Positions 1,726 to 31,801 of a DNA stretch of 46,479 nt are shown piece by piece (position 1 is the first letter of the stretch; each line of letters starts with the position of its first letter). This stretch comes from an uncultured Prevotellaceae bacterium (GTDB lineage: Bacteria > Bacteroidota > Bacteroidia > Bacteroidales > Bacteroidaceae): NCBI GenBank assembly GCA_900315455.1, contig OMZE01000030.1, forward strand, positions 1 through 46,479, read 5' to 3'. A model generated the notes under the pieces. It searched no databases and had not been told where the DNA came from. It worked only from the letters and a program-made list of their open reading frames with translations. The translations under genes were made by a program, and so were the position numbers.

Positions 1726-3936
1726 TCAGATTTCCGTATCCCCACCCAGTGGCAGGTTGTCTGATGAGCCGCCTACCGATATATGCAGGGCACCGGGCTC
1801 GAGCATCCATGTCTGGGCGGCTTCATCCCAATGGCAGAGGTCTGAGCGGCGAACAGGGATAGTGACCGTCTTGCGCTCTCCTGCTTTCAGTGCCACGCGC
1901 TGGAAGCCTTTCAGTTCCTTCACCGGACGGGCAATGCGTGAGTGTGGCCGTGAGACATACACCTGTGCCACCTCCTCGGCATCCATGGCCGACGTATTGG
2001 TGAGCACAAAACGCACCTCTACGCCATCGACCGTAGGAGTGACGGTGAGGTCGCTGTATTGGAACCGTGCATACGACAGACCGAAGCCGAAGGGATAGGC
2101 AGGTGCCACCTGCTTGTCGTCGTACCAGCGATAGCCCACCAACCCCTCTTCAGCATAGTGGGCAACGAGTTGCTGACGGCGGTCGTTGCTCCTGTTTTGT
2201 TGCAGCCCCACGAAGATGTCGCCTTGGTCGTTGTTGTCAAGAGTCTGCGGATAACTTCCCGTGGCATAGGCGGGCACATCTTCGAGTTTCTTCGGCCATG
2301 TCATCGGCAGTTTGCCTGAAGGCGAGATGTTGCCCAAGAGCACCTCTGCCAGGGCCTGACCACCCATCGAACCATTGAACCATGATGCCAGCAATGCCCC
2401 AGATGCCTCACTCACCGTACTCACGTCGACGGGACCGCCCGACACGACTACGGTGACCATGTGTTTGTTGGCCTTTGCCAAGGCGGCGGCCAGTTCATCT
2501 TGTCCGGAAGGGAGTGTGATGCACTTGCGGTCAGACCCCTCGGTCTCTACCTCGCGGTTGTCGCCGGCGAAGAAAATCACGAGGTCGGCACGCTTTGCCG
2601 CTTTCACGGCTTCAGCAAGGAGTTGCTTGTCGGCAGGCTGCTGCGGCTCTTGACGTTTCGCGCGCAGTTCACGGGTGAAACTCTTGTATCCCGGCACATA
2701 GGTGATTTTGGCTTGGTTGCCCACCAGCGCCTGAAGCCCTTCCAACGGCGTGATTTCGCGGTTGGTCTTCACCCCGGCGCCCACGCCACCCAACGCCATC
2801 TTGGTGACGGCGTTCTCGCCCACGACGAGGATGCGCTTGGTTCGCTTCAGGTCGATGGGCAGCAGTTGATCGTTCTTCAGCAGCACGATGGAGCGCCGTG
2901 CAACCTCAAGGGCAATGGCCATCTCCTCGGGATTGCCCGTGGGACGGCGGTTGGCTTCCTCCTTGGCAATGGGAGGTACGGTGAGGCGTACACGGAGAAT
3001 CTCCCTCACCCGCTGGTTGATGACCGACTCGCTCACCTTGCCGGCCTTCACTGAGTCGAGCAGCGCCTGACCCATGAATCGGCTGCCGGGCATCTCCACG
3101 TTCATGCCCGCCGTCACGGCATCGACGGTGGAGTGGACACCACCCCAGTCGCTGATAACCATGCCAGGGAAACCCCATTGCTGGCGAAGGATGGTGGTGA
3201 GCAGCCGCTCGTTCTCCGAACACCAACGGCCGTCGACCTTGTTGTAGGCAGCCATTACCCCCCAGGCATCACCCTCGCGAACCGCCATCTCGAACGGTCG
3301 GAGGTACATCTCATGCATGGCACGGTCGGAGATGTGTACGTCGACGAACCCACGGTAGTCTTCTTGGTTGTTCAGCGCATAGTGTTTCAGGCAGACGGCA
3401 GTGCCCGTCTGCTGTGCTCCCAGGGTATAGGCTACAGAGAGGAAGCCGCTGAGCAGCGGGTCCTCGCTCAAGTATTCATAGGTGCGCCCGCCCGTGGGGA
3501 TGCGCTGGATGTTGATGGCGGGCCCGAGAATCATATCCTTGCCGCGCAGCCGCGCCTCTCGTCCCATGCCAAGGCCGTAGGCGTGAGCCCACTCTGTGCT
3601 CCATGTGGCAGCCAGTGCCGACCCTGTGGGGAAGAACGTGGCAGAGTCGGTGGTCAGGTGCAGCGAGTTCCAGGAGTGAGGCTCCATCTCCTCGCGGATG
3701 CCGAAGGGTCCGTCGGCATATTCCATGTCGGCGATGCCGAGCCGGGGGATGCCTTCCGAGGAGAACATGTTCTTGCCATGCAGCATGGCGATTTTCTCTT
3801 CGAGGGTCATCTTGCTAATAAGGTCCTCGACTTGTTGCTCATGGCTGGTGAGTTGTGAGCGGTAGGGTTGTGCCAACATGGCCGTGGCCATGGCCATCGC
3901 GGCAATGGTGACAAATGTTCTTGCTGTGTGTCTCAT
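1726..3936 (-). CDS. GH3 beta-glucosidase-type enzyme, secreted
   Basis: A 736-residue family 3 glycoside hydrolase with a signal peptide (about 1-22, ending AMLAQ). It has the N-terminal TIM barrel with KHYALNNQE (184-192) and the nucleophile Asp263 in VISDWGG, then the alpha/beta GH3 C-terminal domain (about 360-600) and a fibronectin III-like domain at the end. The KHYALN version and full three-domain layout are those of beta-glucosidases; NagZ-type N-acetylglucosaminidases have a different KH-containing motif. It should release glucose from the end of beta-glucan oligosaccharides in the periplasm. It is the last gene of the six-gene minus-strand operon, 58 bp after the preceding gene. It has no sorting-like tail, unlike the presumed surface enzymes of the locus. 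Confidence 0.93.
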   Translation of the reverse strand: MRHTARTFVTIAAMAMATAMLAQPYRSQLTSHEQQVEDLISKMTLEEKIAMLHGKNMFSSEGIPRLGIADMEYADGPFGIREEMEPHSWNSLHLTTDSATFFPTGSALAATWSTEWAHAYGLGMGREARLRGKDMILGPAINIQRIPTGGRTYEYLSEDPLLSGFLSVAYTLGAQQTGTAVCLKHYALNNQEDYRGFVDVHISDRAMHEMYLRPFEMAVREGDAWGVMAAYNKVDGRWCSENERLLTTILRQQWGFPGMVISDWGGVHSTVDAVTAGMNVEMPGSRFMGQALLDSVKAGKVSESVINQRVREILRVRLTVPPIAKEEANRRPTGNPEEMAIALEVARRSIVLLKNDQLLPIDLKRTKRILVVGENAVTKMALGGVGAGVKTNREITPLEGLQALVGNQAKITYVPGYKSFTRELRAKRQEPQQPADKQLLAEAVKAAKRADLVIFFAGDNREVETEGSDRKCITLPSGQDELAAALAKANKHMVTVVVSGGPVDVSTVSEASGALLASWFNGSMGGQALAEVLLGNISPSGKLPMTWPKKLEDVPAYATGSYPQTLDNNDQGDIFVGLQQNRSNDRRQQLVAHYAEEGLVGYRWYDDKQVAPAYPFGFGLSYARFQYSDLTVTPTVDGVEVRFVLTNTSAMDAEEVAQVYVSRPHSRIARPVKELKGFQRVALKAGERKTVTIPVRRSDLCHWDEAAQTWMLEPGALHISVGGSSDNLPLGGDTEI

Positions 3937-3994: not shown

Positions 3995-5875
3995 TTAGTA
4001 GCCCAGGCCGATGTAACTGTGGGCTGGCAGTTGGATGTCGAACACGGTTTGCTTGTCGGTGTAGCCTACAAAGCGCCAGCGGCTCACGGCCACCTGGGCA
4101 GGCTTGAACTCCTCGCCGGTGAGGAGGTTGCGCAGTTTGTCCACTTTGGCATTTACCACCACGCGCAGACTCACGGCGTTGTCGTTGAAATTTTCCACCA
4201 CCAGGGTCTTGTTGTCGTAGGGGAAGAGCGATACTTTCGACGGTCCTTCGATATATGCTCCCACATCCTTGCTCATCACGCTGCGGATGATGTTGAGGGC
4301 ACCGGCAGGATAGTCGTAGAGGTTGCCGAAGTCGTCGGGGATGGTGAGCACGAAGAGGATGCCCTTGGAGTAGGTGTCGCGCAGCAGGATGGGATAGCCG
4401 GAGACACCGCCCGTGAGCGGCCGGCCGGCACTCACCACCTCCCATGCGTCGTTGGTGAAGTATTTCACCTGGGGGATGATGAACTCACGCTCCGACTTGC
4501 CTGAACGGCCGAAGTCGTTGACAATGGCTTTCAGGTCGCCGCAGTAGAGTTCCACCACGTCGGAAAGTTCGTCTTTGATGACTTTCAACAGGCCTGTGGT
4601 GATGATGACGTCGCCACCCTTGCGCAGTTGCCGCTTGATTTTCTCTACCAGTTGCGGGTCCTTGGCTGCTTGTTGGGTAAGCAGGACTTGCTCGCGGTTG
4701 TCGGGCCACTGTGGATGCATGTCCATAGGCAGGCCAATCATGCCGAGGTAGTTCTGCAGGAAGTCTTCGCCCGAGGAGTGGTAGGGTTTGTAGGAAACCA
4801 GACCGATGGGGTTGCCCAGATGACTCATCAGACGGTCGGTCTGGTGCAGGGTCTGGTCGGCGAAGCGAGCCATGGTGGTGGGGGTGATGGTCTTGCCATC
4901 GCGGGTGTAGGGAGCCACCATCTCGTCGTAGCGGAAACTATTGCCGCCCTCCGACTGCCATGCGGCGCGCATCGACGGCGAGATTTTCACGTCTACCAAC
5001 TGCATGTAGTTCCAGAGAATGATTTCTGGCAGACGGCCGAGCATCGTCAGGTGCAGTTGTTCGGCATAGCGGTCCATACTCATGTTGATGCCGCCGGCAT
5101 CTACCCATCCGCCGAGGTTGCGGCCGGGGGCGATGTTCTCGAAGTAGCGTGAGATGTTGTAACTCAGGTAGTTCTGCAGGTGTTGCGCAGAGGCGGGGTC
5201 GCGTGTCTCATTGCCTGTCCAGATGCCGTCGAAATAGGTGGGCTCTTCCTCGAGGTTGAATCCCAAGCCATGGAAATGGTCATACCAGTTGGGGTATTTC
5301 ACGATAACCTTCACCTTGGGATTCACGGCCTTCGCAGGTCCCACTACCAGTTCGCGTCCGGCATCTGCCATCAGCCGCAGGCGGTATTCCGTCCAACTCT
5401 TGCTGCCCTTGGCGGCTATCTCGTCGTCGTTTTTCAGGTCGATAAAGAAGAAGTCGTCGAGAATGATGTCATCGAAGAATTTCGCGGTGTATTCGGAGAT
5501 ATGCTTCACCATCTGCCGTTCGTCCTCACGGGCGTAACTGTAGGTCTCGAAGTCGGTGGGCTCCGATCGGGTGAACGTGATGCCGCCGCCTACCTCCAGA
5601 CCCTTCGACAGGAAAAACTTCTTCACCTTGGTGAGTGTCTTCTCGGGCACGATGAACGCGTCGCGGTGGGTCTCGAGGTAGATTTTGTCGAGGTCGACCT
5701 GACTGCTCACCGTTTCCCATGTGGATTTCAGAAACTTCTCGTCGTCCATGCGTGCCACGTCCTGAGCACGGATGTAGGTCGACACTTTGAAGTTCTGGTA
5801 CTTGCCGGCCTGCATGGTGGTAGCCAACAGGCAGACCAGCATCATCATGAGTTTTCTTAGATTCTTGTTTGTCAT
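3995..5875 (-). CDS. Secreted, unclassified TIM-barrel glycosidase-like protein
   Basis: 626 residues with a signal peptide (about 1-23, ending TMQAG). I do not recognise a named family. Residues 30-345 read like a TIM barrel: beta-strand and helix alternation, an acidic cluster FDDIILDDFFF (134-144) at a strand end as in several glycosidase clans, VIVKYPNW (190-197) and YFDGIWTGNE (214-223). Residues 355-450 look like a Rossmann-type class I glutamine-amidotransferase-like fold (IGLVSYKPYHSSGED, KGGDVIITTGLL), as seen after the barrel in GH42 enzymes. The remainder is probably a beta-sandwich. It lies between ThuA (22 bp upstream) and GH3 (58 bp downstream), so a carbohydrate-active role in the same substrate pathway is likely. 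Catalytic residues and substrate are unknown. Confidence 0.75.
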   Translation of the reverse strand: MTNKNLRKLMMMLVCLLATTMQAGKYQNFKVSTYIRAQDVARMDDEKFLKSTWETVSSQVDLDKIYLETHRDAFIVPEKTLTKVKKFFLSKGLEVGGGITFTRSEPTDFETYSYAREDERQMVKHISEYTAKFFDDIILDDFFFIDLKNDDEIAAKGSKSWTEYRLRLMADAGRELVVGPAKAVNPKVKVIVKYPNWYDHFHGLGFNLEEEPTYFDGIWTGNETRDPASAQHLQNYLSYNISRYFENIAPGRNLGGWVDAGGINMSMDRYAEQLHLTMLGRLPEIILWNYMQLVDVKISPSMRAAWQSEGGNSFRYDEMVAPYTRDGKTITPTTMARFADQTLHQTDRLMSHLGNPIGLVSYKPYHSSGEDFLQNYLGMIGLPMDMHPQWPDNREQVLLTQQAAKDPQLVEKIKRQLRKGGDVIITTGLLKVIKDELSDVVELYCGDLKAIVNDFGRSGKSEREFIIPQVKYFTNDAWEVVSAGRPLTGGVSGYPILLRDTYSKGILFVLTIPDDFGNLYDYPAGALNIIRSVMSKDVGAYIEGPSKVSLFPYDNKTLVVENFNDNAVSLRVVVNAKVDKLRNLLTGEEFKPAQVAVSRWRFVGYTDKQTVFDIQLPAHSYIGLGY

Positions 5876-5897: not shown

Positions 5898-6707
5898 TTA
5901 TTTCTTGAACGGGTCGCCCTGCGGGTCACGGCTCACCACCCAACGGAAAGCGTTGACGAAGAGCAGTTGCTGTGTGGCATCGATGAAGCCTTCGTCGCCA
6001 TGACCCATGTTGAGATATACCATACGGTATTTCTTATTGGTCCACACGATGGGGAAATCGCCGAATTTCACCACATCCTTCAGACCAAAGGGATACATCT
6101 TCTGTGAGATGCTGAGCAACACCTCCACGTCTTCGTTTTGGCGGGGTGAGGGCTGCCATTGGTAGAACTCACTCGGTGGAACCACGAACTCATGGGGGAG
6201 GGATATGGTCACGGGATGGTCTGCCACGTCGCATTCCACAAGCGCAGGCTGTGGAGGCCAGTTGTTGCAATAGAACTGTCCGCAACCGAGAAACTTGTTC
6301 AGCCATGGCCAGTGGGTGTTGCGGTCGTTGTAGGCGGAGGCATGGAATCCTATCCATCCTCCCCCGTTCTCCATGTATTTCTCAAATGCTTCTCTCTGCG
6401 CTCTGCCCCCGGGGGCGGCATTCAGGCTGATGATGATGCTGTAGTCCTTCAGCCGTTCGTAGGGATATTCTTCCATCGAGGTGGTCACGTCTATCGTCCA
6501 TCCCTCGCCATAGGTGAGTTTGTGGAAGAATTCCATGGCTTGTTTGTCGAACTGCACATGGGCTTCTTCTGCTCCGGGTTGCCAGAACAGCAGAGCCTTG
6601 AACCGGGGGGCGCGGGCATAGTTGGCGGCATATTCCCCTTCATTCTGTGCGATGAGGGGAAGGCAGATGAATGCAGCCACCATCATGGTCAGTATGGTTC
6701 TTCTCAT
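5898..6707 (-). CDS. Secreted ThuA-domain protein
   Basis: 269 residues with a signal peptide (about 1-21, ending LIAQ) followed by one ThuA-like domain, a class I glutamine-amidotransferase-like fold first named from trehalose utilisation in Sinorhizobium. Family signatures are GGGWIGFHASAY, DHPVTISLPHEF, a central EFYQW and PIVWTNKKYRMVYLNMGHG. The fold lacks an obvious amidotransferase Cys-His-Glu triad, and the biochemical activity of the family is not settled; sugar binding or turnover of keto-sugars has been considered. It is the fourth gene of the minus-strand operon, 21 bp after GH9. A second ThuA domain is fused to GH18 two genes upstream in the same operon, so the domain probably contributes directly to substrate handling outside the cytoplasm. 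Confidence 0.87.
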   Translation of the reverse strand: MRRTILTMMVAAFICLPLIAQNEGEYAANYARAPRFKALLFWQPGAEEAHVQFDKQAMEFFHKLTYGEGWTIDVTTSMEEYPYERLKDYSIIISLNAAPGGRAQREAFEKYMENGGGWIGFHASAYNDRNTHWPWLNKFLGCGQFYCNNWPPQPALVECDVADHPVTISLPHEFVVPPSEFYQWQPSPRQNEDVEVLLSISQKMYPFGLKDVVKFGDFPIVWTNKKYRMVYLNMGHGDEGFIDATQQLLFVNAFRWVVSRDPQGDPFKK

Positions 6708-6728: not shown

Positions 6729-9107
6729 TTAATATTCAGCCAGAAGCGACAGGAATTTGGAAGCCGAGGTCACCCACACTTCCTTGTAGCAGGCATTGTT
6801 GGTATGTGGCCAGTAGGGGATGTCTGCATTCCCCAGTGAACGGATGCCAACGGGAATCTCTCCCATCATCTCGCCGGAAGAGAAACTGTCTAACGACGGG
6901 TAGCGGTGCCCTTCACCATAGATGAGCGACTGGCAGAAAGGATTCTTCCCTACTGTCCAGTACAGTTGTTCGCGGCCTATCTGCAACAGGTCGTCATCAC
7001 CGAGGAAGTGGCCACAGAGGGCGGCAGCCTTGCCTGTCGACAGGATGATTGCCTCGTTGCCGTTGAAGATGTTGAACCATATCGGGAACCGGCGCACATA
7101 GTGCCCGTCATCGATTTTCACTCCACTCTCCAACTGGGCGTCATAACGCTCATAGGCATCCTCGGGCGAGAAGATATGCAGGGCGTGGAAGCCTGTGGGG
7201 TCGGCATATTCCTTAGGCAGGTACACCCCAGAAGGGGCCATGCCGTAGGGCTCGGTATACTGGATGATGCCTTTCAGGTAGTTGCCATACAACTCTATGG
7301 CGCGTTTCCATCGCCCGTAGTCTTCATGCTGGGGCTGGCTCTCGCAAAGGGCTGTCAGCGACTGCATGAACAGTTGCTCGCGCGACTGGTGGATGTAGTG
7401 CACTGCCGAGCGGTGGGTCGTGTCACGGTAGAAATACCCCCTACAGGTTCCGCTGTCTTCCTGACATTCCAACATATAGTGGATGCTTTCGGCGGCCAGC
7501 ACAGCATACTCCTCGTTACCCGTCAGCATGAAGAGTTGTGATGCCGCCCAACTCATCGTGGCGTGGTGTTGCGAGCGTGAGGTGTTGTAGGTATGTTCCA
7601 TGATGTGTGGGAAACGGTCGTAACCGTCGCGCCGGAATTTGTGGAGGGCATATCGGAAGTCTTCGGCGGCGGCTTGTGCAAGACTGTCGCGCAGCGATGA
7701 TGGCGGCATGGTTCTTGCCGCATAGGCCTCGCATGCGGCATAGAGGAAATTGTCGTAAGCCATATCTTGCGAGCGCACGGTGAAGATGTCATCGGCAGTG
7801 CCGACGATGCCGTCTGTCCAGTGCATCAGACCGATGCTGCTCGCATGATAGCCGTTGCCTAAGCGGCAGCGCAGCACGAATCGCAGACCCCATTCTGCCT
7901 CTTCGAGCAGGCGTGATGCCAGGGCCGAATGCTTGTCGGGCATCTTTTGCCATGCTTCGAGGAGTGAGTAGGCCGTCTCGCATGTCTGCAGCGTCTGTTG
8001 CGACAGGTCGCCGGCATCATGCCAACCGCCGCCATAGGGGGTCTGTTCGCCTTTGAAAGAACAGAATACGTCGTTGTGGCAGATGGCGTGGATGCCGGGC
8101 ACCGCATATCCGCAGCGTTGGCAGAAGATGAAATTGAGCAGCAGTTCTTCTGCATGACGGAAGACGTTATTGCTGATATGGAAGGTGTCGGTCTTCAGCC
8201 TGTCGCACGTCAGCCAGTATTCTCCTGCTTGGGTGAACGGGGAAAAGTCAAGTATTCCAAATGTTCCTGTCGTCGTCTGCCGTACACGCACGGCGTCATC
8301 ATACACCGTATAGCCGCTCCTGGCGTCTATAAGTTGGAAATGGCAGTCGGATGGTGATGTCTCAATTGATGGGATGTCGGAGAGATTGACGATGGCTGTC
8401 TTCCGTCCTTGGGGGTAATAGCCCGTGAAAGAATAGGCGATGTGTCCTTGTGCCGGTTGCCAGCCGGCCTCTTCTTCCGTATGCCCCACCTGTTCCAGGC
8501 GGATATTCTTGATGATGTAGGTGAAAGAGTCGCACCATGCCTGATTCCTGCCTTTCAGGTCGGTGTAGATGTCGATGCCCCGTACTTTGTCGCGCGGCAA
8601 TCCGGAGATATCGTAAACGACTTTGTTCCACTGATTGTTTTTCAGGTTTACCAGATGTGCTCCCAAATCCCCTCCTTCTTCGTTGTTCAGGAAAAGGTTC
8701 AGGTTCATGATGGCGATACCCTCGCATCGGGGAAAAACCTCCATCGTGATGTGGTGGTAATCTTCAAGACTGCGATGATGGAGATGGTACGACACAGTGG
8801 CGCGTCCATATGTGGCATAGTCGGGGTCATCGGGAGAGCCTTGTGCCCGCTTGCCGGTATTGACAGGCAGTCGCAGGCATAGTTCCCCGTCGTCGGTATA
8901 TGTCATGGTGCCAAGTCCTTGGTGCTGCCAGTCTCTCAAGGTGGGCGTGATGGTCAACGGCTCGCTTTTTAGCACGGTTTCCCTCAGCAACTCCGTTTCC
9001 AAGGAGTTGCGGGCATCCACCGGCAATGGCATCTGTGCCTGTGTGTTGAGGCCGATAGATAAAAGGAAAACGATGATGTATTTGTTCAATGCTCCTCCAA
9101 CGTCCAT
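6729..9107 (-). CDS. GH9 glycoside hydrolase, secreted
   Basis: 792 residues from the ATG at 9107. Order: signal peptide (NKYIIVFLLSIGLNTQAQ, 8-25), a beta-sandwich resembling a carbohydrate-binding domain (about 30-210), a CelD-type Ig-like domain (about 220-310) and the GH9 (alpha/alpha)6 barrel (about 315-790). GGWHDAGD carries Asp364 and Asp367, and the general acid is probably Glu776 in YKEVWV near the C-terminus. GH9 contains endoglucanases but also exo-acting enzymes including exo-beta-D-glucosaminidases, which would fit the adjacent chitinase-type genes; the substrate is not decided by sequence. The reading frame extends upstream to 9326, but that part overlaps the GH18-ThuA gene and is not signal-like. 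An alternative TTG start at 9089, overlapping the upstream stop and preceded by GGAGGA, would give a cleaner signal peptide. Confidence 0.88.
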   Translation of the reverse strand: MDVGGALNKYIIVFLLSIGLNTQAQMPLPVDARNSLETELLRETVLKSEPLTITPTLRDWQHQGLGTMTYTDDGELCLRLPVNTGKRAQGSPDDPDYATYGRATVSYHLHHRSLEDYHHITMEVFPRCEGIAIMNLNLFLNNEEGGDLGAHLVNLKNNQWNKVVYDISGLPRDKVRGIDIYTDLKGRNQAWCDSFTYIIKNIRLEQVGHTEEEAGWQPAQGHIAYSFTGYYPQGRKTAIVNLSDIPSIETSPSDCHFQLIDARSGYTVYDDAVRVRQTTTGTFGILDFSPFTQAGEYWLTCDRLKTDTFHISNNVFRHAEELLLNFIFCQRCGYAVPGIHAICHNDVFCSFKGEQTPYGGGWHDAGDLSQQTLQTCETAYSLLEAWQKMPDKHSALASRLLEEAEWGLRFVLRCRLGNGYHASSIGLMHWTDGIVGTADDIFTVRSQDMAYDNFLYAACEAYAARTMPPSSLRDSLAQAAAEDFRYALHKFRRDGYDRFPHIMEHTYNTSRSQHHATMSWAASQLFMLTGNEEYAVLAAESIHYMLECQEDSGTCRGYFYRDTTHRSAVHYIHQSREQLFMQSLTALCESQPQHEDYGRWKRAIELYGNYLKGIIQYTEPYGMAPSGVYLPKEYADPTGFHALHIFSPEDAYERYDAQLESGVKIDDGHYVRRFPIWFNIFNGNEAIILSTGKAAALCGHFLGDDDLLQIGREQLYWTVGKNPFCQSLIYGEGHRYPSLDSFSSGEMMGEIPVGIRSLGNADIPYWPHTNNACYKEVWVTSASKFLSLLAEY

Positions 9108-10810
9108 TCTAGGGCGTTTTCCAGTAATTTGATGAAGGCGGGATTGTCGAACAGCAGTTTGCTGTGTCCGAATTGGAAATACACGTTCCTGGCACCTTTC
9201 GTGGGATTGGTCCATATCACGGGATGGTCGCCCATCTTGATGTCGGTATTGATGGTGTAACTGGCCTCGTCGACATGAGCCAGCACATGCACGTTCTGGC
9301 GTGGGTCCTTGTTGTAGGTGTACCATTCGTCGTCTTCAATGACGAAAGTGCCGGGGATGTCTTTCATCACGGGATGTTGCCGGTCTTCCACCCGCACGGT
9401 GCCGTCGCACTTGTCGGCGATGTAGTTCTGATAGCGCACGCTGCCCATGAAGTCGGAGAACCACTGCCACATGCTGTATCCGTCGAACTCACCGAGCAAG
9501 GAGGCATGGTGGAAACCGATATAGTTGCCCGTGCCACGGTCGATATAGCGTTGGAAATCTTCTTGCGACTCCTTGCTCCAGGCATAGGGAGGGTGGTTCA
9601 ACTGAAGGATGAGGTGATACTTGCCGAGTTCATCTTTGGCGATGTGCTCTGCCGTGCTCAGAATGGTCAGTTGCATGTGGAACCGCTCCTTGTTGTCTTC
9701 GAGCCATTGCAGGCCAGTGGCAGTAAACGGTTCATGCAGTCCGCCCCGCTCTGCCAGTACGAGGACTTGGCGTGGGGGAACAGTGGCTTTCTTGTTCTTG
9801 AGGAGCGAGAGATAGAGGGTTGTGCGCTCATCGCCCTGGCTGTTGTCGCTGGCATAGTCCCAGTACATGCCGCCTCGTAGGTGATGGTCGAGGATATACT
9901 GGCATTTGGCTGCCAACGAGCGGATGTTCTCATATCCTCTCACCAGTTCTCCCCGTTCGTTGGTGATGTAGGGCACCATGCCCACATCGTCCCAACGCTT
10001 CTCATAGCCTCTGGGCAGGATGCCGGTGCGGTCGTATTCCCTCAGCCCATGGTCGTCGCGTTTGCCACGACCATAGAAAGGCATTCCCATCACCAGTTTG
10101 CTGGCGGGCACTCCTGCTTTCAGGTGCGCCTCTACCGCCTGCGATGAGGTGATGTGACTGGATATGGGCGAGGGGTAGAGGGCGGCATGGTGTTTGGGCG
10201 GGTTGCCCATGTCGTAGGCCATGACGTTGACGAAGTCCATGTATGGTATGCACGAGGGGAAGTCGATGTATTTAGCGTCGCACACCGTGGCGGCGGTGAG
10301 GAGTTTCTTCTTTCCCAATGTGCGGCGCAGGTCGCGCATGAGCAGGGTGAAGTTCTTCGTGTCGTCAGGAGATGAAGAGATGCCTGCCGACGATTGGGTG
10401 GGATATTCCCAGTCGATGTCGATACCGTCGAGGGCGAATTCCGCAACCACCCTCCGGCAGTCTTTAACGAAAGCCTCGCGGTTTTTTTCCGAGGCTGCCA
10501 TCTCGCTGAAGCGTCCGCTGCCCCATCCTCCGATGCTGAGCATCACTTTCAGCGACGGGTTCTTGCTCTTCAGCCCTACAATCATGCGCAGACGGTCGGG
10601 ATTGTCCACCCTCACGCCATCGAAGGAGTCGCTGACGTGCCCGAAGGCGTAGTTGATGTGTGTCATCGTCATGGGGTCGGGCACCTCGTTGGTCCACGAG
10701 GTGACATATGCCACAACCAGCATGTTGTCGGTGGCTTTTTGTTTCGCCGATGCCGTGAGCACTGTGAGCATGGCGATGGCGAGGCATAGGATTTTGTTGG
10801 TCTTCTTCAT
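9086..10810 (-). CDS. GH18 chitinase-type domain fused to a ThuA domain
   Basis: 574 residues from ATG 10810 (a longer frame to 10849 overlaps the previous gene; MKKTNKILCLAIAM is the clear signal-peptide start). Residues about 30-345 are a GH18 TIM barrel with SIGGWGSG, the catalytic DGIDIDWE (Glu135 as proton donor) and MAYDMG. Residues about 349-571 are a ThuA domain: VLVLAERGG, NYIGFHHAS, HPVMKDIPGTF, DDEWYTY and PVIWTN...VYFQFGH line up with the free ThuA protein at 5898-6707. The GH18 should cleave beta-1,4-linked GlcNAc backbones; the ThuA role is unknown. The gene follows GH16-GH18 by 13 nt, and GH9 starts inside its end. The GH18 part is strikingly similar to that of its upstream neighbour, which suggests tandem duplication. 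Confidence 0.92.
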   Translation of the reverse strand: MKKTNKILCLAIAMLTVLTASAKQKATDNMLVVAYVTSWTNEVPDPMTMTHINYAFGHVSDSFDGVRVDNPDRLRMIVGLKSKNPSLKVMLSIGGWGSGRFSEMAASEKNREAFVKDCRRVVAEFALDGIDIDWEYPTQSSAGISSSPDDTKNFTLLMRDLRRTLGKKKLLTAATVCDAKYIDFPSCIPYMDFVNVMAYDMGNPPKHHAALYPSPISSHITSSQAVEAHLKAGVPASKLVMGMPFYGRGKRDDHGLREYDRTGILPRGYEKRWDDVGMVPYITNERGELVRGYENIRSLAAKCQYILDHHLRGGMYWDYASDNSQGDERTTLYLSLLKNKKATVPPRQVLVLAERGGLHEPFTATGLQWLEDNKERFHMQLTILSTAEHIAKDELGKYHLILQLNHPPYAWSKESQEDFQRYIDRGTGNYIGFHHASLLGEFDGYSMWQWFSDFMGSVRYQNYIADKCDGTVRVEDRQHPVMKDIPGTFVIEDDEWYTYNKDPRQNVHVLAHVDEASYTINTDIKMGDHPVIWTNPTKGARNVYFQFGHSKLLFDNPAFIKLLENALEWTLEEH

Positions 10811-10823
10811 AGGTGTGGTGTCT

Positions 10824-13502
10824 TTACGGGGTGATTGCTTTCTTGCCATGGGAGATGAGTATTTGTTTTGATGGCAGGTCTCCTTTCCTGTCCGTCCCGC
10901 TTCCTACGGCTCTTCCCATGAGGTCATACCAGTTGTTGTCTTCACGGCTGTTGACCATCATGGGCTTGTCAATGGCAGTGGTGATGTTCTCGGTCGACAG
11001 CACCACGTGTTCGGTGTCGCTGGTGTCGATGGTGAAGACATACACGTCGCCTGGGGTGAGTTGCTTCCCGCTGCGGAGTTTCACGTTGCCGCAGTCTGGC
11101 GTGTTGTAATTCACGTAAAAGACATCACTCGTAGTCGTTATTTTGGGATTGGTGAAGGGGGTGAACTCGTCGTTGGAGTCATTGCCGAAGGAGTTTTGGT
11201 GGAAGAACTTGAAATTCACCTTGTCGGGGTTCAGTTGCTTGCCCACCTCAAAGGTTATCTGGTGATGGGTGGCGTCAATCTGTGCCATCGGCAGCGCACG
11301 GCTTTCCGACCAGCCATCGTCGTTGCCGGGAATATAGGTGGGTTTCCCATAACTCGAATTGGCTCCAATGACCCAGATACAGCCTGTGCCATCCCATGTG
11401 TGGTAGGTGAGGGGCTGTCCCTCTTCATCGAGGGGCGTGACATGGAAACACTGGTTGTTGAAATCGGCGCTGATGTCGTATTTCCCCGACACGGCACGGA
11501 ACAGGTAGGTGCCGTCGCCTTGCCGTTGGAAGAAATCGGGGTCGTAATACCAATTGTCGGACACCATCTCATCGGCACCAGAGGCTTCGTAGGTGTGGCC
11601 TTGTGTCAGGTCAATGGCATTGCCGTATTGGTTGGCTCCGACATACTCCAAAGGCACACCGCCAAAAAGGAGGTTCTCTTTCTTTACGGCATTGCCCACC
11701 AGACAGTCGTACACGGTATAGCGCTCTGTGCCCATCTGGTTGTCGTTGGCGTATTCCCAATACATACCTCCTGCCAGGTCGTTGTCTACGATATACTGGC
11801 ACTTGATGGTAAGCGACCTCGCGTTGTCGTAGCCGTAGACGAACTGGCCGTTCTGGTTGGTCACATAGGGCACCTTAGCCACGTCGTCGAAATGGTCTAT
11901 CCATTTCCCTTCGCCGATGCCGTCTTCTATCTCTTGCAGCGACACCTGGTTGGCGGAGCCGCTGCCGTCGCCGTTGCCATTGCCATAGAAGGCCATGCCC
12001 ATTACCAGTTTCTCGGGTGGGATGCCTGCTTTCAGGTGGTTCTGTATCGACTCATGGACCACGCACCAGCCGTTGCCCACTGTTCCACCGCGGTAGAGGG
12101 CGGAATGGTGATGGGGCGGACTGGCCATGTCGTAGGTCATGACATTTACGAAATCCAGGTATCCTATGAGACTGTTGTAATCATAATAGTCGGGGCTCGA
12201 CGATGATGCCATAGTAAGCAACAGGTTGTCGCCCAATGCCTCGCGCAGGTCACGCATCAGCAGTGTGTAGTTGTTTTTCTCACCGGCAGGCGATGTCTCT
12301 CCCGAGGAGTTGTTGCCGGGAAATTCCCAGTCGATGTCGATGCCGTCGATACCGTTTTGGTCGCAGAAGTTGCGGCATGACTGTGCGAAGGCCTTCCGCT
12401 TGGCTTCATCGGCGGCAACGGGTGAGAAATTGCCGCGACCCCATCCTCCGATGCTCAGCAATACTTTCAGCGCAGGGTTCTTTTGCTTGAGCGCCACAAT
12501 CTCCTGGAAACGGTTCTTGCCGTCCACATAGACCTGCGAGTTGTTGTCGATGCCACCGAAGGCATAGTTGATATGTGTCATGGCGTTGGCATCGACGGCA
12601 ACCGACGACCATGACGTGACATATGCCACCACTTTCTTTGCTGTGGCAGGCATAGGCTTTTTGTATACGCGTACATAGTCAACAAGCATTTCGGTGGGCA
12701 AGGCGCTCTCGTCTACACCTTGTGCTCCGCCCCACGAACCTCCCCATGCCAGGTTGAGAATGGGATAGAAGGCATAGTGGAAGGGCCACACCGAATGGTC
12801 GTCGCTCTCTTTCAGAAATTCCATGTGCTTCTGTCCGTCGACAAAAAACGACAGTTTCTCCGAGGTCCACTCCAACGCATAGATATGATACTCTTCTTCT
12901 GCCGTCGGAAGGTATAGGGAATGGGTCTTCTGCGTGTTGGCAGGATGGTTGTAGGCCTCGCAGTGAATAGACGACGACACGTTGCCGGGAGAGTAGCCCA
13001 CCTCTTCCATGATGTCAATCTCGCCACAGCGGGGCCAGGGATTCGTCGACCAGTCGACGTTCGACGGCATCATCCAGAATGCCGGCCAGGTGCCACGGCC
13101 TTTGGGCAACTTGATGCGGGCCTCGAAATAGCCGTAGCGCCAACCCTCGTTGGGACGGGCGTTGATGCGGCCCGACACGATTTGGTCGTCTACTTTCTGC
13201 AGGCGGATGGTCAGATGGTCGTCTTCCACAAACACCACTTTGTTGCCTCTGAAGGTCTTCCCTACGTATCGCTGCAACTCGTTGTTCACCCATCCGGGGT
13301 CGTGAATCTCGAATTTCCAGTCGTTGGTGTTCAACTCACTGCCGTCGAATTCATCGCTCCAGTCCAACTGATACCCCTCGGGTACAAATCCCGACTCTTC
13401 ATGGGTGGTCTCCAACCCGGTGCCGGTTTGTGCATACAGGGTGGTGGCGGAGAAAAAGAGCATGAGCAATGCCACGACATTTTTCATTCTTGCCTTTTTC
13501 AT
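10824..13502 (-). CDS. Bifunctional GH16-GH18 enzyme with surface-type C-terminal module and sorting-like tail
   Basis: 892 residues from ATG 13502 (frame open to 13520). A signal peptide ending in TTLYAQ is followed by a GH16 laminarinase-like jelly roll (about 45-282) with EIDIMEE (Glu161 nucleophile, Glu166 acid/base), then a GH18 barrel (about 290-605) with SIGGWG and DGIDIDWE (Glu393). Residues about 630-840 hold a two-part beta module (GTYLFRAVSGKYDI, then CIWVIGANSSYGKP and VNFKFFHQNS) that resembles the repeats of the surface protein at 25130-27421. The tail has YDLMGR and HGKK. GH16 with this motif usually cleaves beta-1,3 or mixed beta-glucans and GH18 cleaves chitin, so one polypeptide could open glucan-chitin walls. 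It is the first gene of the minus-strand operon, with a well-matched promoter at 13607-13637. Confidence 0.92.
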   Translation of the reverse strand: MKKARMKNVVALLMLFFSATTLYAQTGTGLETTHEESGFVPEGYQLDWSDEFDGSELNTNDWKFEIHDPGWVNNELQRYVGKTFRGNKVVFVEDDHLTIRLQKVDDQIVSGRINARPNEGWRYGYFEARIKLPKGRGTWPAFWMMPSNVDWSTNPWPRCGEIDIMEEVGYSPGNVSSSIHCEAYNHPANTQKTHSLYLPTAEEEYHIYALEWTSEKLSFFVDGQKHMEFLKESDDHSVWPFHYAFYPILNLAWGGSWGGAQGVDESALPTEMLVDYVRVYKKPMPATAKKVVAYVTSWSSVAVDANAMTHINYAFGGIDNNSQVYVDGKNRFQEIVALKQKNPALKVLLSIGGWGRGNFSPVAADEAKRKAFAQSCRNFCDQNGIDGIDIDWEFPGNNSSGETSPAGEKNNYTLLMRDLREALGDNLLLTMASSSSPDYYDYNSLIGYLDFVNVMTYDMASPPHHHSALYRGGTVGNGWCVVHESIQNHLKAGIPPEKLVMGMAFYGNGNGDGSGSANQVSLQEIEDGIGEGKWIDHFDDVAKVPYVTNQNGQFVYGYDNARSLTIKCQYIVDNDLAGGMYWEYANDNQMGTERYTVYDCLVGNAVKKENLLFGGVPLEYVGANQYGNAIDLTQGHTYEASGADEMVSDNWYYDPDFFQRQGDGTYLFRAVSGKYDISADFNNQCFHVTPLDEEGQPLTYHTWDGTGCIWVIGANSSYGKPTYIPGNDDGWSESRALPMAQIDATHHQITFEVGKQLNPDKVNFKFFHQNSFGNDSNDEFTPFTNPKITTTSDVFYVNYNTPDCGNVKLRSGKQLTPGDVYVFTIDTSDTEHVVLSTENITTAIDKPMMVNSREDNNWYDLMGRAVGSGTDRKGDLPSKQILISHGKKAITP

Positions 13503-13594
13503 TGTACTGTTTGTTGACAATTATCTTTAGGTATTATAGTAGTAATCACGATAGTGCCCAATAAAGCGAAAGCCGAGAGAAGCATCCTATATTC

Positions 13595-13794: not shown

Positions 13795-13826
13795 CTTGTG
13801 AGTTTCTGGCTTTTTTTATATTTTTG
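13795..13826 (+). promoter_or_regulatory. Promoter of the DUF6377 regulator gene
   Basis: CTTG (13795-13798), 20 bp, then TATTTTTG (13819-13826) match the Bacteroidetes consensus. The predicted start is near 13832, giving a leader of about 28 nt before ATG 13860. This argues against the longer frame from 13824, which would begin inside the promoter. Confidence 0.6.
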
Positions 13827-13859
13827 CCAAAACTGATTTTTTTTGGCCAATCAATACCG

Positions 13860-15554
13860 ATGATGAACAAGTTTTACCTCTTTACGTTTTTCTTCCTTCT
13901 ATCACTTTTTTCCATAGAGGTAAAAGGTGCCGCCATGCTTGATGACGACAAGCAGACCACCATCTTGTTGCAGCAGTTGGATTCTGCCATTGCTCACATC
14001 CAGGAATACGATGCCGCCCATGAGAAGGCTATCGGCGACATCAAACAGCAACTGCGTCATCTTCAAGGTGGTTTGGCAGAAGAGATGGCGTTGACCGACA
14101 AACTCATCGAGGCGTATTCAAAGTTCAATTACGACTCCACCACCGTTTACATCAACCGCTACCTGAAATTGGCTGAGCAGAGTGGCAATTGGGGGCTCAT
14201 CACCCGCGCTAAATTGCGCAAGGCTCAATTCTATGCCAAGACAGGAGCCTATCTCGAATCGGTGAGCATCCTCAAGGAAATCGATGAAGACCATTTGCCC
14301 GACAGCATCCTTCCTTATTATTATAATGCATGTAGGGATGTGTATGGGGAGTCGGGATACTACTCCCACGATGATGACTTTAAGGCCGATTATCTCGATA
14401 AGGCAGGTCGTAGCCGCTACTTGCTCGAACAATACTACAGCCGTGAACCGGAGAGCGATGCTTATCTCGACTTGCTCGAAACTCGGGAACGCAACAAGCA
14501 TAACTATGAGGCTGCACTCAAATACAGTGACTTGAGACTCCAGCGCACCGACTCCCTCGCCAAGAAATTCTCAGAGATAGCCTATTTCCGCTCGTTGGTC
14601 TTCCATGGACTTGGAGACAAGGAGAAAGAAAAACAATGGCTCATCAGGTCGGCCATCGGAGACCTGCGCCATTCCATCAAGGACCAGGCTTCGCTCTGGA
14701 CACTTGCCGACTTGCTCAGCGAGGAGGGCGACGTAAAAAGGTCATACCTGCTCATCAATATTTCCCAGGATGGGCTGCAGCAATACAATTCCCCCTTGCG
14801 CAACTTGCAGAGCATCAACATTCTCAACAACATCGCCCACAACTACCAGTTGATGACCAACAACCAGAACCATAAGTTGACCACTATGCTTATCCTCGCT
14901 GGCGTGTTGGCATTGCTCCTGGCCATGGCAGTGGTATATGTGATTCTCCAGATGCGCAGGCTGAGGGCGGCGCGTCGCGACCTGCACGAAAGCAACCAGA
15001 ACCTGAAGACGCTCAACGAGCAACTCCAGCAAACGATAGAGCAACTCCACCAGAGCAACAACTTGCTCAGTGAGAGCAACCGCATGAAAGAAGTTTATAT
15101 GGGCAACTTCCTCACGCTTTGTTCCGACTATCTCAAAAAAATGGAGAATTTCCGTTCCACTGCCCTGAAAAAACAGAAGAGCGGCCAACTTGCGGAGTAT
15201 CTGTCTTCAAAGAAAATGCTCGAGATGAAGTCGAGGGACTTCGAGGAGTTGCTGGGCAACTTCGACAAAGCATTCCTCACCATCTTGCCTACTTTCATCG
15301 ATGAGTTCAATGCACTTCTTCAACCCCAAAACCGTATTATCCCGCCAAAAGAAAATTCACTCACCACGGAATTGCGTATCTTCGCATTGATACGACTCGG
15401 CATCACCGACAGTTCCAAAATAGCCGAATTCCTGAATTATTCCGTACACACGATTTACAACTATCGGTCTACTGTGAAAAATGCCTCCATAGGTCCTCGC
15501 GAGAACTTTGAAAAGGCTGTGAAGCAAATTGGCAACAATTTGACCACTTTATAA
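13860..15554 (+). CDS. Membrane-anchored TPR/DUF6377-type transcriptional regulator
   Basis: 564 residues from ATG 13860 (or 13863). A signal-like N-terminal segment (KFYLFTFFFLLSLFS) leads into a helical, TPR-like outer region (about 30-335), one transmembrane helix (about 343-364, MLILAGVLALLLAMAVVYV), a coiled coil (about 375-415) and a C-terminal LuxR-like helix-turn-helix (about 500-550, with ELRIFALIRLGITDSSKIAEFL). This is the layout of DUF6377 proteins that sit next to polysaccharide loci in Bacteroidales. The topology places a sensor domain in the periplasm and the DNA-binding domain in the cytoplasm. It lies between the divergent GH operon and the susC operon, so it probably senses a released oligosaccharide and activates both. 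No histidine kinase or sigma/anti-sigma genes are present in the window. Confidence 0.82.
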   Translation: MMNKFYLFTFFFLLSLFSIEVKGAAMLDDDKQTTILLQQLDSAIAHIQEYDAAHEKAIGDIKQQLRHLQGGLAEEMALTDKLIEAYSKFNYDSTTVYINRYLKLAEQSGNWGLITRAKLRKAQFYAKTGAYLESVSILKEIDEDHLPDSILPYYYNACRDVYGESGYYSHDDDFKADYLDKAGRSRYLLEQYYSREPESDAYLDLLETRERNKHNYEAALKYSDLRLQRTDSLAKKFSEIAYFRSLVFHGLGDKEKEKQWLIRSAIGDLRHSIKDQASLWTLADLLSEEGDVKRSYLLINISQDGLQQYNSPLRNLQSINILNNIAHNYQLMTNNQNHKLTTMLILAGVLALLLAMAVVYVILQMRRLRAARRDLHESNQNLKTLNEQLQQTIEQLHQSNNLLSESNRMKEVYMGNFLTLCSDYLKKMENFRSTALKKQKSGQLAEYLSSKKMLEMKSRDFEELLGNFDKAFLTILPTFIDEFNALLQPQNRIIPPKENSLTTELRIFALIRLGITDSSKIAEFLNYSVHTIYNYRSTVKNASIGPRENFEKAVKQIGNNLTTL

Positions 15555-15753: not shown

Positions 15754-18700
15754 ATGAGAAAGAAACCTTTGAAACAGTTCTTTACGATTTTGCTGATGAT
15801 GGCCATTGGCTCATTGCCCATGAGCGCACAGCAACATATCGTGAAAGGACTCGTCGTCGACACGGAAGGCACTCCGCTGCCTGGTGTCACTGTGGTTGTA
15901 AGGGGTAAAGAGGCTGGGGGCACCGTCACTTCGGTCGACGGAAAATATGCGCTTAACGCCGAACCCCGCGATACCCTGACATTCTCTTACATTGGTTTTG
16001 CTACAGTGAAAGAGTATGTAGGAAGACGTGACGAAATCGATGTAGTGATGAGGGAAGACGAGAACACCCTCGATGAGATGGTGGTCGTGGCTTTTGCCAA
16101 GCAGAAGAAAAACTCTGTCATCGGCTCCATCGAGACCATCAACCCCGCCGAGTTGCGCACGCCGAGTACCAACCTCACCAATACGATGGCTGGACGTATC
16201 GCCGGTGTCGTATCTTATCAACGTACGGGTGAGCCTGGCAAGGACAACGCCAACTTCTTCATCCGTGGCGTGAGTAGTCTGGAGAGTTCGCTTGCCGGAC
16301 CGCTGATCCTTATCGACGGCATTGAAATGTCAACAGAAGACCTGGCACGTCTGGAACCGGAAAACATCGCCAGTTTCTCTATCATGAAAGACGCTACCGC
16401 CACCGCACTCTATGGTTCCAAGGGCGCCAACGGCGTAATCCTTGTCACCACCAAGTCGGGTAAGAAGGGCAAACTCAAGATTACCACTCGCCTGGAAACA
16501 CAAATCTCCACACCAACGAAGATTCTGGAATTTGTGGATGGCGTGGAGTATATGAATCTCTATAATTATGCGGTACGCACACGCGATGTACAAGGTGTGA
16601 CCAGCGATGCCTACCTGATGGAGAAGATAGAGAACACCCGAAAAGGCGTAGACCCGATGCTCTATCCTAACGTCGACTGGTATGGCATGATGTTCAAGAA
16701 CGCCGCCATCAACACCAAGGCTACGGTTACTGCCTCGGGTGGTGGCGAGGTGGCACAGTATTACCTCTCTGCCGCCTACACCCACGAGAATGGTTTGCTG
16801 AAGGTACCGTCGGTGAACAACTACAACAACAACATCAGCATCAACCGCTACAATATCCGCGCCAATATCGACGTGAACCTCACGAAGACAACGAAGGCGG
16901 CCGTAAAGGTTTATACACTGCTCGACCGCTCCAACACGCCTGCCGCATCTACATCCAACCTCTTCGACCAGATTATGCGTGCCAATCCCGTCGACTTCCC
17001 CGCCTTCTACGACAAGTCTATCGACAATACCTGGTATTATGCCGACCACGTGCTCTACGGCAACAATGTGGGTAGCGTGCGCTATCCCAACCCCTACGCC
17101 GAGATGATGGTGGGCTATTCCGACGCTTTCTCCTATACGGGAAACTCCATCTTCACCATCGAACAAGACCTGAAGATGATTACCGAAGGACTCTCAGCAC
17201 GCGCGCTGGCATCGTTCACCTCTACAGGCTCAAATACCAACACGCGCTCCATGACCCCGTTCTACTACGCGCTGAAGACCGAGGTGAGCGAGTTGGGCAC
17301 GAAATACAGTCTCGACCAGGTGCAGGAGGGTACCGACCGCCTGAGCAACCCCCAGCAGAGTCTCTCTACCAGCAGTTCCTATTACTTTGAGGCTGCTATC
17401 CAGTATAACAGGGAGTTCGGCAAGCATGGCGTGAGCGGCATGTTGGTAGGACAGATGAAGGAACAGTTGCTGGGCAACCAGGGCGGTGCCTTCGGCTCAC
17501 TGCCCATCCGCACACTGGGCCTCTCGGGCCGCTTCACCTACAGTTATGGCGAACGCTATTACCTGGAGGCCAACTTCGGCTACAATGGCTCTGAGAAGTT
17601 CGACCGCGACCACCGTTGGGGCTTCTTCCCCTCTATCGGTGTGGGATACATCATCTCGAATGAGCCTTTCTGGCAGAATTCTTCCATCGCAAAAATCTTC
17701 CCGATGTTTAAACTCAAGGGAAGTTACGGACTGGTGGGCAACGACAATATCATGTCGACAAGCCAGCGCTTCTACTACCTCGCCGACGTGAATACCAACA
17801 ACGGTGGCTTAGGATATGCCTGGGGACAGGATTTCAATGTCACCTACAACGGCTACTCCATCAACCGCTATGCCAACTCCAAGATTGGATGGGAGGCTGC
17901 CACCATGCAGAACTACGGTGTGGAAATCGATTTCATGCACAAGGCAACCATACAGTTTGAATACTTCCGCGAAGACCGCGACGACATCTACCAGCGCATG
18001 GGGTCGGTGCCAATGACCATGGGCGCCACCGCCGATATCTATGCCAATATGGGTAAGACCAAAAAGCATGGTATCGACGCCTCCTGCGACATCAACTGGA
18101 GCATAACTCCACACTGGTGGCTGCAGACACGTTTCAATTATACCTACACCACCAGTGAGTATATCCGGGGCGGCGACCTCGTCTATCCCGAACCCTGGCG
18201 CAACCGGTTCGGCTACAACCTGAGCCAGCAATGGGGATATGTGGCAGAACGACTCTTCATCGACCAGAACGATGTGGAGAACAGCCCGCGCCAGGAAGTG
18301 GTGGCAGGTGCTACCTACATGGCAGGCGACATCAAGTATGTTGACATCAACAACGACGGTGTCATCAACTCGAAGGATATGGTGGCCATCGGTTATCCTA
18401 CCGACCCGGAAATCGTCTACGGTTTTGGAGCATCGACGGGGTACAAGAACTTCGACTTCTCCTTCTTCTTCCAGGGAGTGGCTCATTCTTCGTTCTTCAT
18501 CCAGCCTTCGTCCATCGAGCCGTTGGCCAACCACCGCAATGCGCTCAAACTGGTGGCTGGCAACTACTGGAGTGAGGAGAATCCCGACCCGCAGGCTTTC
18601 TGGCCCCGCTTGTCTACTGCCGGGGTGGCCAACAATACTGTGAACTCTACATGGTGGCTGCGCGACGGTTCGTTCCTGCGCCTGAAGACCGTGGAGATGG

Positions 18701-18882
18701 GTTATTCCCTGCCTACAAAACTGGTGAGGAAATGGGGCTTGAGCCTGCTGCGCTTCTTTGCCTCTGGCAACAACTTGGTTTGTTTCAGCAACTTCAAGTT
18801 GTGGGACCCTGAAATGGGTGGATATGGCATTGGCTATCCCACACAGAGAGTATTCAACATCGGTGTGAATTTGGAATTCTGA
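15754..18882 (+). CDS. susC: SusC-like TonB-dependent glycan transporter
   Basis: 1042 residues. A signal peptide (1-25, ending PMSAQ) precedes a carboxypeptidase-regulatory-like domain (about 28-105, KGLVVDTEGTPLPGV), then the plug (about 115-235, with the SusC-type FFIRGVSSL and ATALYGSKGANGVILVTT) and the 22-strand barrel ending in the aromatic VNLEF. It imports oligosaccharides across the outer membrane using TonB energy, with the SusD partner encoded 13 bp downstream as lid. It is the first gene of the plus-strand operon 15754-27421. Size and signature are typical of PUL transporters rather than siderophore receptors. Substrate specificity cannot be read from sequence and rests on the neighbouring GH30, GH16 and GH18 genes. 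Confidence 0.95.
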   Translation: MRKKPLKQFFTILLMMAIGSLPMSAQQHIVKGLVVDTEGTPLPGVTVVVRGKEAGGTVTSVDGKYALNAEPRDTLTFSYIGFATVKEYVGRRDEIDVVMREDENTLDEMVVVAFAKQKKNSVIGSIETINPAELRTPSTNLTNTMAGRIAGVVSYQRTGEPGKDNANFFIRGVSSLESSLAGPLILIDGIEMSTEDLARLEPENIASFSIMKDATATALYGSKGANGVILVTTKSGKKGKLKITTRLETQISTPTKILEFVDGVEYMNLYNYAVRTRDVQGVTSDAYLMEKIENTRKGVDPMLYPNVDWYGMMFKNAAINTKATVTASGGGEVAQYYLSAAYTHENGLLKVPSVNNYNNNISINRYNIRANIDVNLTKTTKAAVKVYTLLDRSNTPAASTSNLFDQIMRANPVDFPAFYDKSIDNTWYYADHVLYGNNVGSVRYPNPYAEMMVGYSDAFSYTGNSIFTIEQDLKMITEGLSARALASFTSTGSNTNTRSMTPFYYALKTEVSELGTKYSLDQVQEGTDRLSNPQQSLSTSSSYYFEAAIQYNREFGKHGVSGMLVGQMKEQLLGNQGGAFGSLPIRTLGLSGRFTYSYGERYYLEANFGYNGSEKFDRDHRWGFFPSIGVGYIISNEPFWQNSSIAKIFPMFKLKGSYGLVGNDNIMSTSQRFYYLADVNTNNGGLGYAWGQDFNVTYNGYSINRYANSKIGWEAATMQNYGVEIDFMHKATIQFEYFREDRDDIYQRMGSVPMTMGATADIYANMGKTKKHGIDASCDINWSITPHWWLQTRFNYTYTTSEYIRGGDLVYPEPWRNRFGYNLSQQWGYVAERLFIDQNDVENSPRQEVVAGATYMAGDIKYVDINNDGVINSKDMVAIGYPTDPEIVYGFGASTGYKNFDFSFFFQGVAHSSFFIQPSSIEPLANHRNALKLVAGNYWSEENPDPQAFWPRLSTAGVANNTVNSTWWLRDGSFLRLKTVEMGYSLPTKLVRKWGLSLLRFFASGNNLVCFSNFKLWDPEMGGYGIGYPTQRVFNIGVNLEF

Positions 18883-18895
18883 TGAGGGCATAAAA

Positions 18896-20854: not shown

Positions 20855-20890
20855 TCGTGAGAAGAGAAATGTGATAAACATATAACGAAA

Positions 20891-22357: not shown

Positions 22358-22392
22358 CAAGCAGAGAGTGAATTATAAAATACAACAATCCT

Positions 22393-22791: not shown

Positions 22792-22792
22792 C

Positions 22793-23458: not shown

Positions 23459-23479
23459 TGTTTTTTAATAGAGAGTTTT

Positions 23480-25084: not shown

Positions 25085-25129
25085 AACGATTAATCATACA
25101 CATTTATCATTCACTTAAATCAACGCATT

Positions 25130-31799: not shown

Positions 31800-31801
31800 A
31801 T

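Follow-up and report, generated by a model that had tools for sequence, protein, structure and literature searches.

A GH18-ThuA fusion gene in a Prevotellaceae operon

The window analysed here is a stretch of 46,479 nucleotides from an uncultured Prevotellaceae bacterium (contig OMZE01000030.1 of assembly GCA_900315455.1), and its minus strand carries, at 9086..10810, a gene in which a glycoside hydrolase family 18 (GH18) domain is joined to a ThuA domain of a subfamily that we refer to as ThuA1. A sequence-only reading of this DNA had proposed such a fusion at these coordinates, and both the coordinates and the two domains hold; a plus-strand reading of 9086-10810 was ruled out by six stops in that frame. 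Both domains belong to known families. Their fusion is genuine, is seen repeatedly and is informative: the neighbouring genes and related proteins suggest a role for ThuA in taking the acetyl groups off pieces of chitin, which could then be consumed in the form of glucosamine (GlcN).

Translation from the ATG at 10810 gives a protein of 574 amino acids, while an in-frame ATG upstream at 10849 would give 587. Residues 32-322 (9845..10717, minus strand) match the Pfam profile PF00704 (E value 7.6e-65; 220.1 bits against a curated cut-off of 29.6) and include the sequence DGIDIDWEYP from residue 128, in which DGIDIDWE (128-135) is the DxxDxDxE catalytic motif of GH18 enzymes. Asp128, Asp131, Asp133, Glu135, Tyr199, Asp200 and Trp317 were all invariant in an alignment of 19 fused and four free GH18 rows. 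Where the sequence-only reading had placed a ThuA domain, at residues 349-571, we found a match to PF06283 over residues 348-570 (9101..9769, minus strand; E value 2.2e-40; 139.6 bits against a cut-off of 33.4) that covers profile positions 1-209 of 209. An AlphaFold2 model of the protein had a mean predicted local distance difference test score of 90.7 and a predicted template modelling score of 0.88; the matches listed in a fold search with the whole model were GH18 chains, and the structural neighbours among them were chitinases, chitinase-like proteins and one GH18 N-acetylglucosaminidase. Residues 1-23 resemble a type I signal peptide by eye, and on this hydrophobic, signal-like N-terminus the protein is secreted-looking. 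Full-length fusions of GH18 with ThuA are also present in other genomes, where the best segments are 42-85% identical to the window's protein, so the fusion is not an accident of assembly. In the window's own genome, which is rated 100% complete and 8% contaminated, PF06283 matches at E <= 0.001 were limited to two proteins, the fused ThuA1 and a free ThuA protein of the same operon (ThuA2). The fusion product is best explained as a predicted secreted two-domain enzyme of a chitin- or chitosan-degrading cassette.

The fusion gene is the second of six minus-strand genes (13520..10824, 10810..9086, 9107..6729, 6707..5898, 5875..3995 and 3936..1726) that follow one another with small gaps or overlaps and form a predicted operon. 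The first gene (10824..13520) encodes an 898-residue GH16-GH18-DUF5125-DUF5121 protein (Pfam); the presence of GH16 and GH18 in one chain suggests a joint attack on glucan and chitin. Downstream of the fusion lies a GH9 gene with a CelD_N domain (6729..9107; Pfam), the open frame of which begins at 9326; its likely start at 9107, chosen by eye from a signal-like N-terminus, overlaps the end of the GH18-ThuA1 gene. Free ThuA2 follows (5898..6707; 269 residues with a signal-like N-terminus; PF06283 E value 5.8e-35, 121.9 bits), then a 626-residue protein (3995..5875) that matched nothing in NCBIfam, nothing in Pfam above a cut-off and nothing meaningful by sequence in the Protein Data Bank (PDB), and finally a 736-residue GH3 protein (1726..3936; Pfam).

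Divergent from the operon, on the plus strand, is a SusR-type regulator (13824..15554; NF058541 at 483.8 bits with a cut-off of 480, and PF19904); it is barely above the SusR cut-off, yet nothing in the locus looks starch-specific. The plus-strand arm of this polysaccharide utilisation locus (PUL) extends over 15754..27421 and encodes SusC, SusD, DUF4959/DUF5000, DUF4998, a 223-residue protein, GH30 and a triple-DUF5121 protein (Pfam). GH16, GH30 and GH3 are families with glucanase specificities, and the locus looks aimed at mixed glucan-chitin material such as fungal wall. Farther along, a xylose-isomerase-like TIM-barrel gene is paired with an MFS_2 sugar transporter at 30082-33335 (minus strand), adjoined by GH127 at 27615-29987 (plus strand).

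Two ThuA subfamilies share a set of conserved residues

A quick tree of 108 ThuA domains separated ThuA1 (56 rows) from ThuA2 (52 rows), each with a support of 100. In an alignment of 37 ThuA1 and 28 ThuA2 domains, L350, H359, G432, H434, W448, W450, F454, G456, H479, E495, Y497, G527, D528, P530, W533, N535, Y544, G548, H549, N565 and W569 were identical in at least 95% of each subfamily; this common set bears out the earlier observation that the fused and free ThuA of the operon carry the same landmarks. Of these residues, H359, H434, H479, E495, Y497, D528 and H549 are kept in fused and free ThuA alike, with one exception at H479. Judged by eye, H434, E495, Y497 and H549 align with the same residues in the structures 4jqs and 4e5v, and also in 1t0b, but the latter match is weak (E value 0.48). 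H359 aligns with a histidine of 4jqs only, as 4e5v has its histidine one place off.

In the model of the fusion protein, H359 is found in the connection from strand 347-353 to helix 360-373, H434 directly follows strand 429-433 and H549 sits in the loop after strand 542-545, so that all three are placed near the C-terminal edge of the central sheet, the usual site of catalysis in this fold class; E495 and Y497 fall within strand 488-499. At the place of the cysteine nucleophile of class I glutamine amidotransferases, after strand 429-433 (placed by eye), the sequence reads His434-His435-Ala, and the cysteine position in fused ThuA1 thus appears, on the model, to be occupied by His434-His435.

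One may postulate that ThuA has no catalytic role and instead binds carbohydrate, keeping GH18 attached to chitin much as the ThuA-like domain of Agd3 might. In Agd3 and in a levan surface protein, a ThuA-like fold binds a sugar polymer, according to the available portions of PMC7229062 and PMC7618045, and the conserved tryptophans W448, W450, W533 and W569 would suit such a role. We nevertheless regard a binding module as doubtful, given the invariant His/Glu/Asp/Tyr set in both ThuA1 and ThuA2, the presence of ThuA2 in a reading frame of its own at 37 of 68 ThuA loci and the association of ThuA1 with exo-type GH9 as well as GH18.

Fusions of GH18, GH9 and ThuA recur in Bacteroidales

These 68 ThuA loci are non-redundant and exclude the window; L032, L036, L037 and L038 were removed as duplicates. 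GH18 is fused to ThuA1 in 27 of them and to ThuA2 in 11, ThuA1 is fused to ThuA2 in five and to a GH9 of the window's type in one. As loci were chosen partly for fusion-sized frames, and named loci were found with a GH18-containing query, these numbers and the GH18 counts below are not frequencies. ThuA1 is also fused to a second type of GH9 in L137 (658-3177; Pfam) and L140 (9945-12476; phmmer, 88% identity to L137); both fusions, whose GH9 is of the VC0615 exo-glucosaminidase type, adjoin a second ThuA1 and a ThuA2. On a quick GH18 tree, in which gains of fusion cannot be separated from losses, the well-supported branches require no fewer than two changes to explain the GH18-ThuA2 label and no fewer than three to explain GH18-ThuA1. 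The sequence-only reading called the fusion unusual; it is real, but it is recurrent in Bacteroidales, where GH18 has been joined to two ThuA subfamilies. Because fusions among them recur, GH18, GH9, ThuA1 and ThuA2 behave as partners.

Across 52 non-redundant ThuA1 loci, ThuA2 was present on 37, GH18 on 34 and GH9 on 29 (24 of the window type and five of the second type). Among 40 selected regions, 32 had ThuA1, accompanied by ThuA2 in 26, GH18 in 20 and window-type GH9 in 13; the pairs L116/L117 and L130/L151 of these regions each share one genome. Our least selected set leaves the window out and takes 11 order-level genomes whose ThuA1 match lies below an E value of 1e-100; GH18 or GH9 was found in six of the 11 regions (L132, L136, L137, L139, L140 and L142).

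Some ThuA1 loci carry a putative glucosamine cassette

A ROK kinase, a homologue of glucosamine-6-phosphate deaminase and a NagP-like importer of the major facilitator superfamily are all present on 14 of the 52 ThuA1 loci. We then compared 41 ThuA genomes (30 drawn from 44 with a match in one search, the window's included, and 11 from 27 others) with 39 ThuA-negative genomes chosen by hand from the remainder; the ThuA set is mostly free of weak and other-subfamily matches, and includes G001 and G292, in which the ThuA type is unconfirmed. The deaminase homologue (E value below 1e-75) occurs in 13 of the 41 and none of the 39 (Fisher p 8e-5, kinship ignored), and window-type GH9 in 16 of the 41, including all 13 with the deaminase, and again none of the 39. 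This homologue differs from ordinary NagB; deaminase matches at about 23-33% identity are found in ThuA and ThuA-negative genomes alike. The proposed link of ThuA to amino-sugar polymers is supported by gene neighbourhoods and partner enzymes. A third ThuA-type protein stands beside the cassette in L062 (9034-9933), L039 (9832-10755) and L096 (3457-4458), Pfam-confirmed for the L062 copy.

The structure model of the window GH9 is nearest to 6gdt, 3h7l, 5dgq and 5dgr, and is closer to exo-glucosaminidases than to endoglucanases. The second type of GH9, found in five loci either as a neighbour of ThuA1 or joined to it, is closely related to a Vibrionaceae exo-glucosaminidase (E value 5e-127 for L139). 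A profile match to exo-glucosaminidases at an E value of 2.8e-90 was dropped, as that profile mixed the two GH9 types and its separation disappeared with the window type alone; for this reason we make the sequence claim for the second type only and the structural claim for the window type. A related Vibrionaceae GH9 enzyme cleaves (GlcN)2 and not (GlcNAc)2, where GlcNAc is N-acetylglucosamine, according to the available part of PMC6096475.

The hexosamine could in principle be another one, such as galactosamine, with the pathway directed at a polymer of galactosamine or N-acetylgalactosamine. None of the NCBIfam models listed reaches its curated cut-off with the L062 copy of the deaminase homologue, whose score for glucosamine-6-phosphate deaminase (185 bits) is only slightly ahead of that for galactosamine-6-phosphate isomerase (160 bits). 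The chance of this seems very slim to us, given the listed structural neighbours of the GH18 domain (chitinases, chitinase-like proteins and one GH18 N-acetylglucosaminidase) and the action of the relatives of the GH9 enzymes on (GlcN)2.

The family name and the rhizobial link of ThuA with ThuB raise another scenario, in which ThuA would process 3-keto sugars as part of an oxidation-elimination pathway that degrades chitobiose. Five Gfo/Idh/MocA proteins of the window's genome had no relative on the 52 ThuA1 loci, a search by which a divergent oxidoreductase could be missed, and among the open-licence titles listed for ThuA with 3-keto sugars none dealt with ThuA chemistry. In Bacteroides thetaiotaomicron, moreover, the accessible text of PMC9007349 assigns 3-ketotrehalose hydrolysis to the DUF1080 protein BT2157 and not to ThuA; a 3-keto route is accordingly very unlikely.

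NagA, NagX and the source of glucosamine

Six NagA query proteins, which do find their own loci, did not find this cytoplasmic deacetylase in the fetched ThuA neighbourhoods, nor was NagA found in the window's genome at E <= 0.001. Twelve ThuA genomes with a completeness of 90% or more likewise had no NagA over cut-off. A different enzyme, NagX, has been proposed to acetylate periplasmic glucosamine in bacteria (PMC9007349, in the part available). NagX-type (HGSNAT-like) acetyltransferase genes lie on the GH18 or ThuA loci L126, L128, L114, L123, L139, L065, L055, L078 and L091; genomes G191 (L114) and G363 (L139) have NagX and ThuA but no NagA over cut-off, a combination that the proposed NagX pathway does not explain.

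These genes bear on an alternative in which ThuA belongs to the same amino-sugar pathway and is not a deacetylase. The substrate would be fungal chitosan, which has already lost part of its acetyl groups, cut by GH18 at GlcNAc and relieved of GlcN by GH9, and ThuA would perform some other step, for instance removal of a substituent. GH9 could obtain GlcN from chitosan directly, the NagX genes, seen on six ThuA1 loci out of 52, would agree with GlcN arising in the periplasm and being acetylated there, and GH16, GH30 and GH3 in the PUL are expected for a fungal wall of glucan and chitin or chitosan. The GlcNAc part of the polymer would, however, be left without NagA in the 12 near-complete ThuA genomes, and no other candidate enzyme recurs strongly among the neighbours that we scanned (108 unassigned frames of 150-1099 residues within 4 kb of ThuA at 33 chosen loci). 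Apart from SusD and regulators, no family matches more than three of these frames. Overall we judge the chitosan scenario unlikely, while giving it real weight.

A possible extracellular deacetylation route

GH18 enzymes require an N-acetyl group on the sugar at the cut. GH9 would need a free amine and the deaminase GlcN-6-phosphate, and NagA was not found in the fetched ThuA neighbourhoods, the window's genome or the 12 near-complete genomes, so loss of the N-acetyl group would be expected to take place outside the cytoplasm. The candidates for this step are ThuA1 and ThuA2, which are conserved and have no function assigned to them. In such a route the GH18 domain would cut N-acetylated chitin-type chains, ThuA1 and free ThuA2 would remove the N-acetyl group from the released oligosaccharides or from GlcNAc by metal-dependent N-deacetylation, and GH9 would then release GlcN from the non-reducing end. 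GlcN would be imported, phosphorylated and converted by the deaminase to fructose-6-phosphate, so that NagA is by-passed. Catalysis by ThuA, its use of a metal, the deacetylation reaction and GlcN as the hexosamine are what we infer, the deacetylation from the logic of the pathway only. That a ThuA-like arrangement can host a metal-dependent amide hydrolase is illustrated by dimethylformamidase (PMC7686228, in its available part). Among the 25 commonest families of the 108 neighbours there was no N-deacetylase family, although a family matched once could be hidden.

Several observations weigh against this interpretation. NagA over cut-off is found in 19 of the 41 ThuA genomes versus four of the 39 ThuA-negative genomes, so the absence of NagA does not track ThuA, and all 19 searched genomes of the window's genus are without it over cut-off. 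The window operon itself is without the kinase, deaminase and importer of the cassette. Neither GH18 nor GH9 was seen in five of the 11 least selected regions, or on 10 of the 52 ThuA1 loci, some of which end at contig ends. The sequence profile of window-type GH9 gives no separation between 3h7l (2.5e-19) and the CelD-type cellulase 4cj0 (4.8e-18), and the alignment behind the window GH9 model contained one second-type row (L100). To our knowledge no activity is known for any close relative of ThuA1 or ThuA2, and the namesake ThuA is linked to trehalose or 3-keto-trehalose, sugars without an amide. GDSL hydrolases, which are possible O-acetyl esterases, match two of the 108 neighbours. The operon GH9 could be a glucosidase, since beta-glucosides and, at a lower rate, cellobiose are also substrates of VC0615, and since an earlier study saw no VC0615 activity on GlcN disaccharides, both as told in the accessible part of PMC6096475. 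The NagX matches (five strong and one of 40 bits) are a further difficulty, as acetylating GlcN beside a deacetylase looks futile; either chitosan is the food and ThuA acts otherwise, or the role of NagX differs here. In B. thetaiotaomicron glucosamine can be acetylated to GlcNAc (PMC11300592, portion available). ThuA-like domains can also be mere sugar-binding modules, as in Agd3 and the levan surface glycan-binding protein (PMC7229062, PMC7618045, PMC12022489).

Taking these points together, we tentatively favour ThuA as the deacetylase of a chitin-to-glucosamine route, at a little short of an even chance. The fuller proposal is possible but rather less than evenly balanced: that ThuA1 and ThuA2 make up a previously unrecognised family of carbohydrate N-deacetylases, secreted and built on a glutamine-amidotransferase-like fold, which together with GH18 and GH9 form a NagA-independent, glucosamine-delivering chitin route in Bacteroidota, and that the fusion couples its first two steps. 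The ThuA family is widespread, and several structures of its members have been solved; the fusions and the GH9 and deaminase partners narrow it to one testable chemistry. If correct, this would explain chitin use by Bacteroidota without NagA, add a carbohydrate-esterase-type activity to a fold for which we know of none, and improve the reading of many polysaccharide utilisation loci.

Comparison with known systems

Agd3 (CE18) has a ThuA-like N-terminal domain of the same fold class on an enzyme acting on an amino-sugar polymer; in the part of PMC7229062 available, that domain is reported to be without the conserved surface residues of a ThuA-like protein, and to locate on hyphae with a lectin marker. 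The GH18 structures closest to that of the window, the CotE chitinase domain (6t9m), ChiD (4lgx), ChiW (5gzu) and the Paenibacillus barengoltzii N-acetylglucosaminidase (6inx), have entry titles in which a ThuA domain is not mentioned. A ThuA-like protein of Bacteroides uniformis (PDB 4jqs/4pxy) is a close homologue of the operon ThuA2 (E value 5.4e-124 for 4jqs) and matches the fused ThuA1 domain at 1.4e-23; it is a stand-alone, unfused chain of 250 residues, named as uncharacterised in the entries and the available text of the papers. The structures nearest to the operon GH9 model are those of the Vibrionaceae enzymes VC0615 (6gdt) and PBPRA0520 (5dgq), to which the second GH9 type is also closely related in sequence; the window GH9 is only 16-20% identical to them when the structures are aligned, and it carries an additional region at its N-terminus. 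Among the titles listed from the open-licence literature, none dealt with a GH18-ThuA protein or with deacetylation by ThuA; in the papers searched we saw neither this domain architecture nor the logic of its partners described, and no proof of a ThuA reaction.

The chitin route of Thermococcales proceeds from a chitinase through a deacetylase and an exo-glucosaminidase to glucosamine. With its diacetylchitobiose deacetylase and GlmA, it follows the same logic as the route proposed here, as far as the available portions of its descriptions go, and it uses other families for each step: GlmA belongs to GH35, and the deacetylase is of the PIG-L type.

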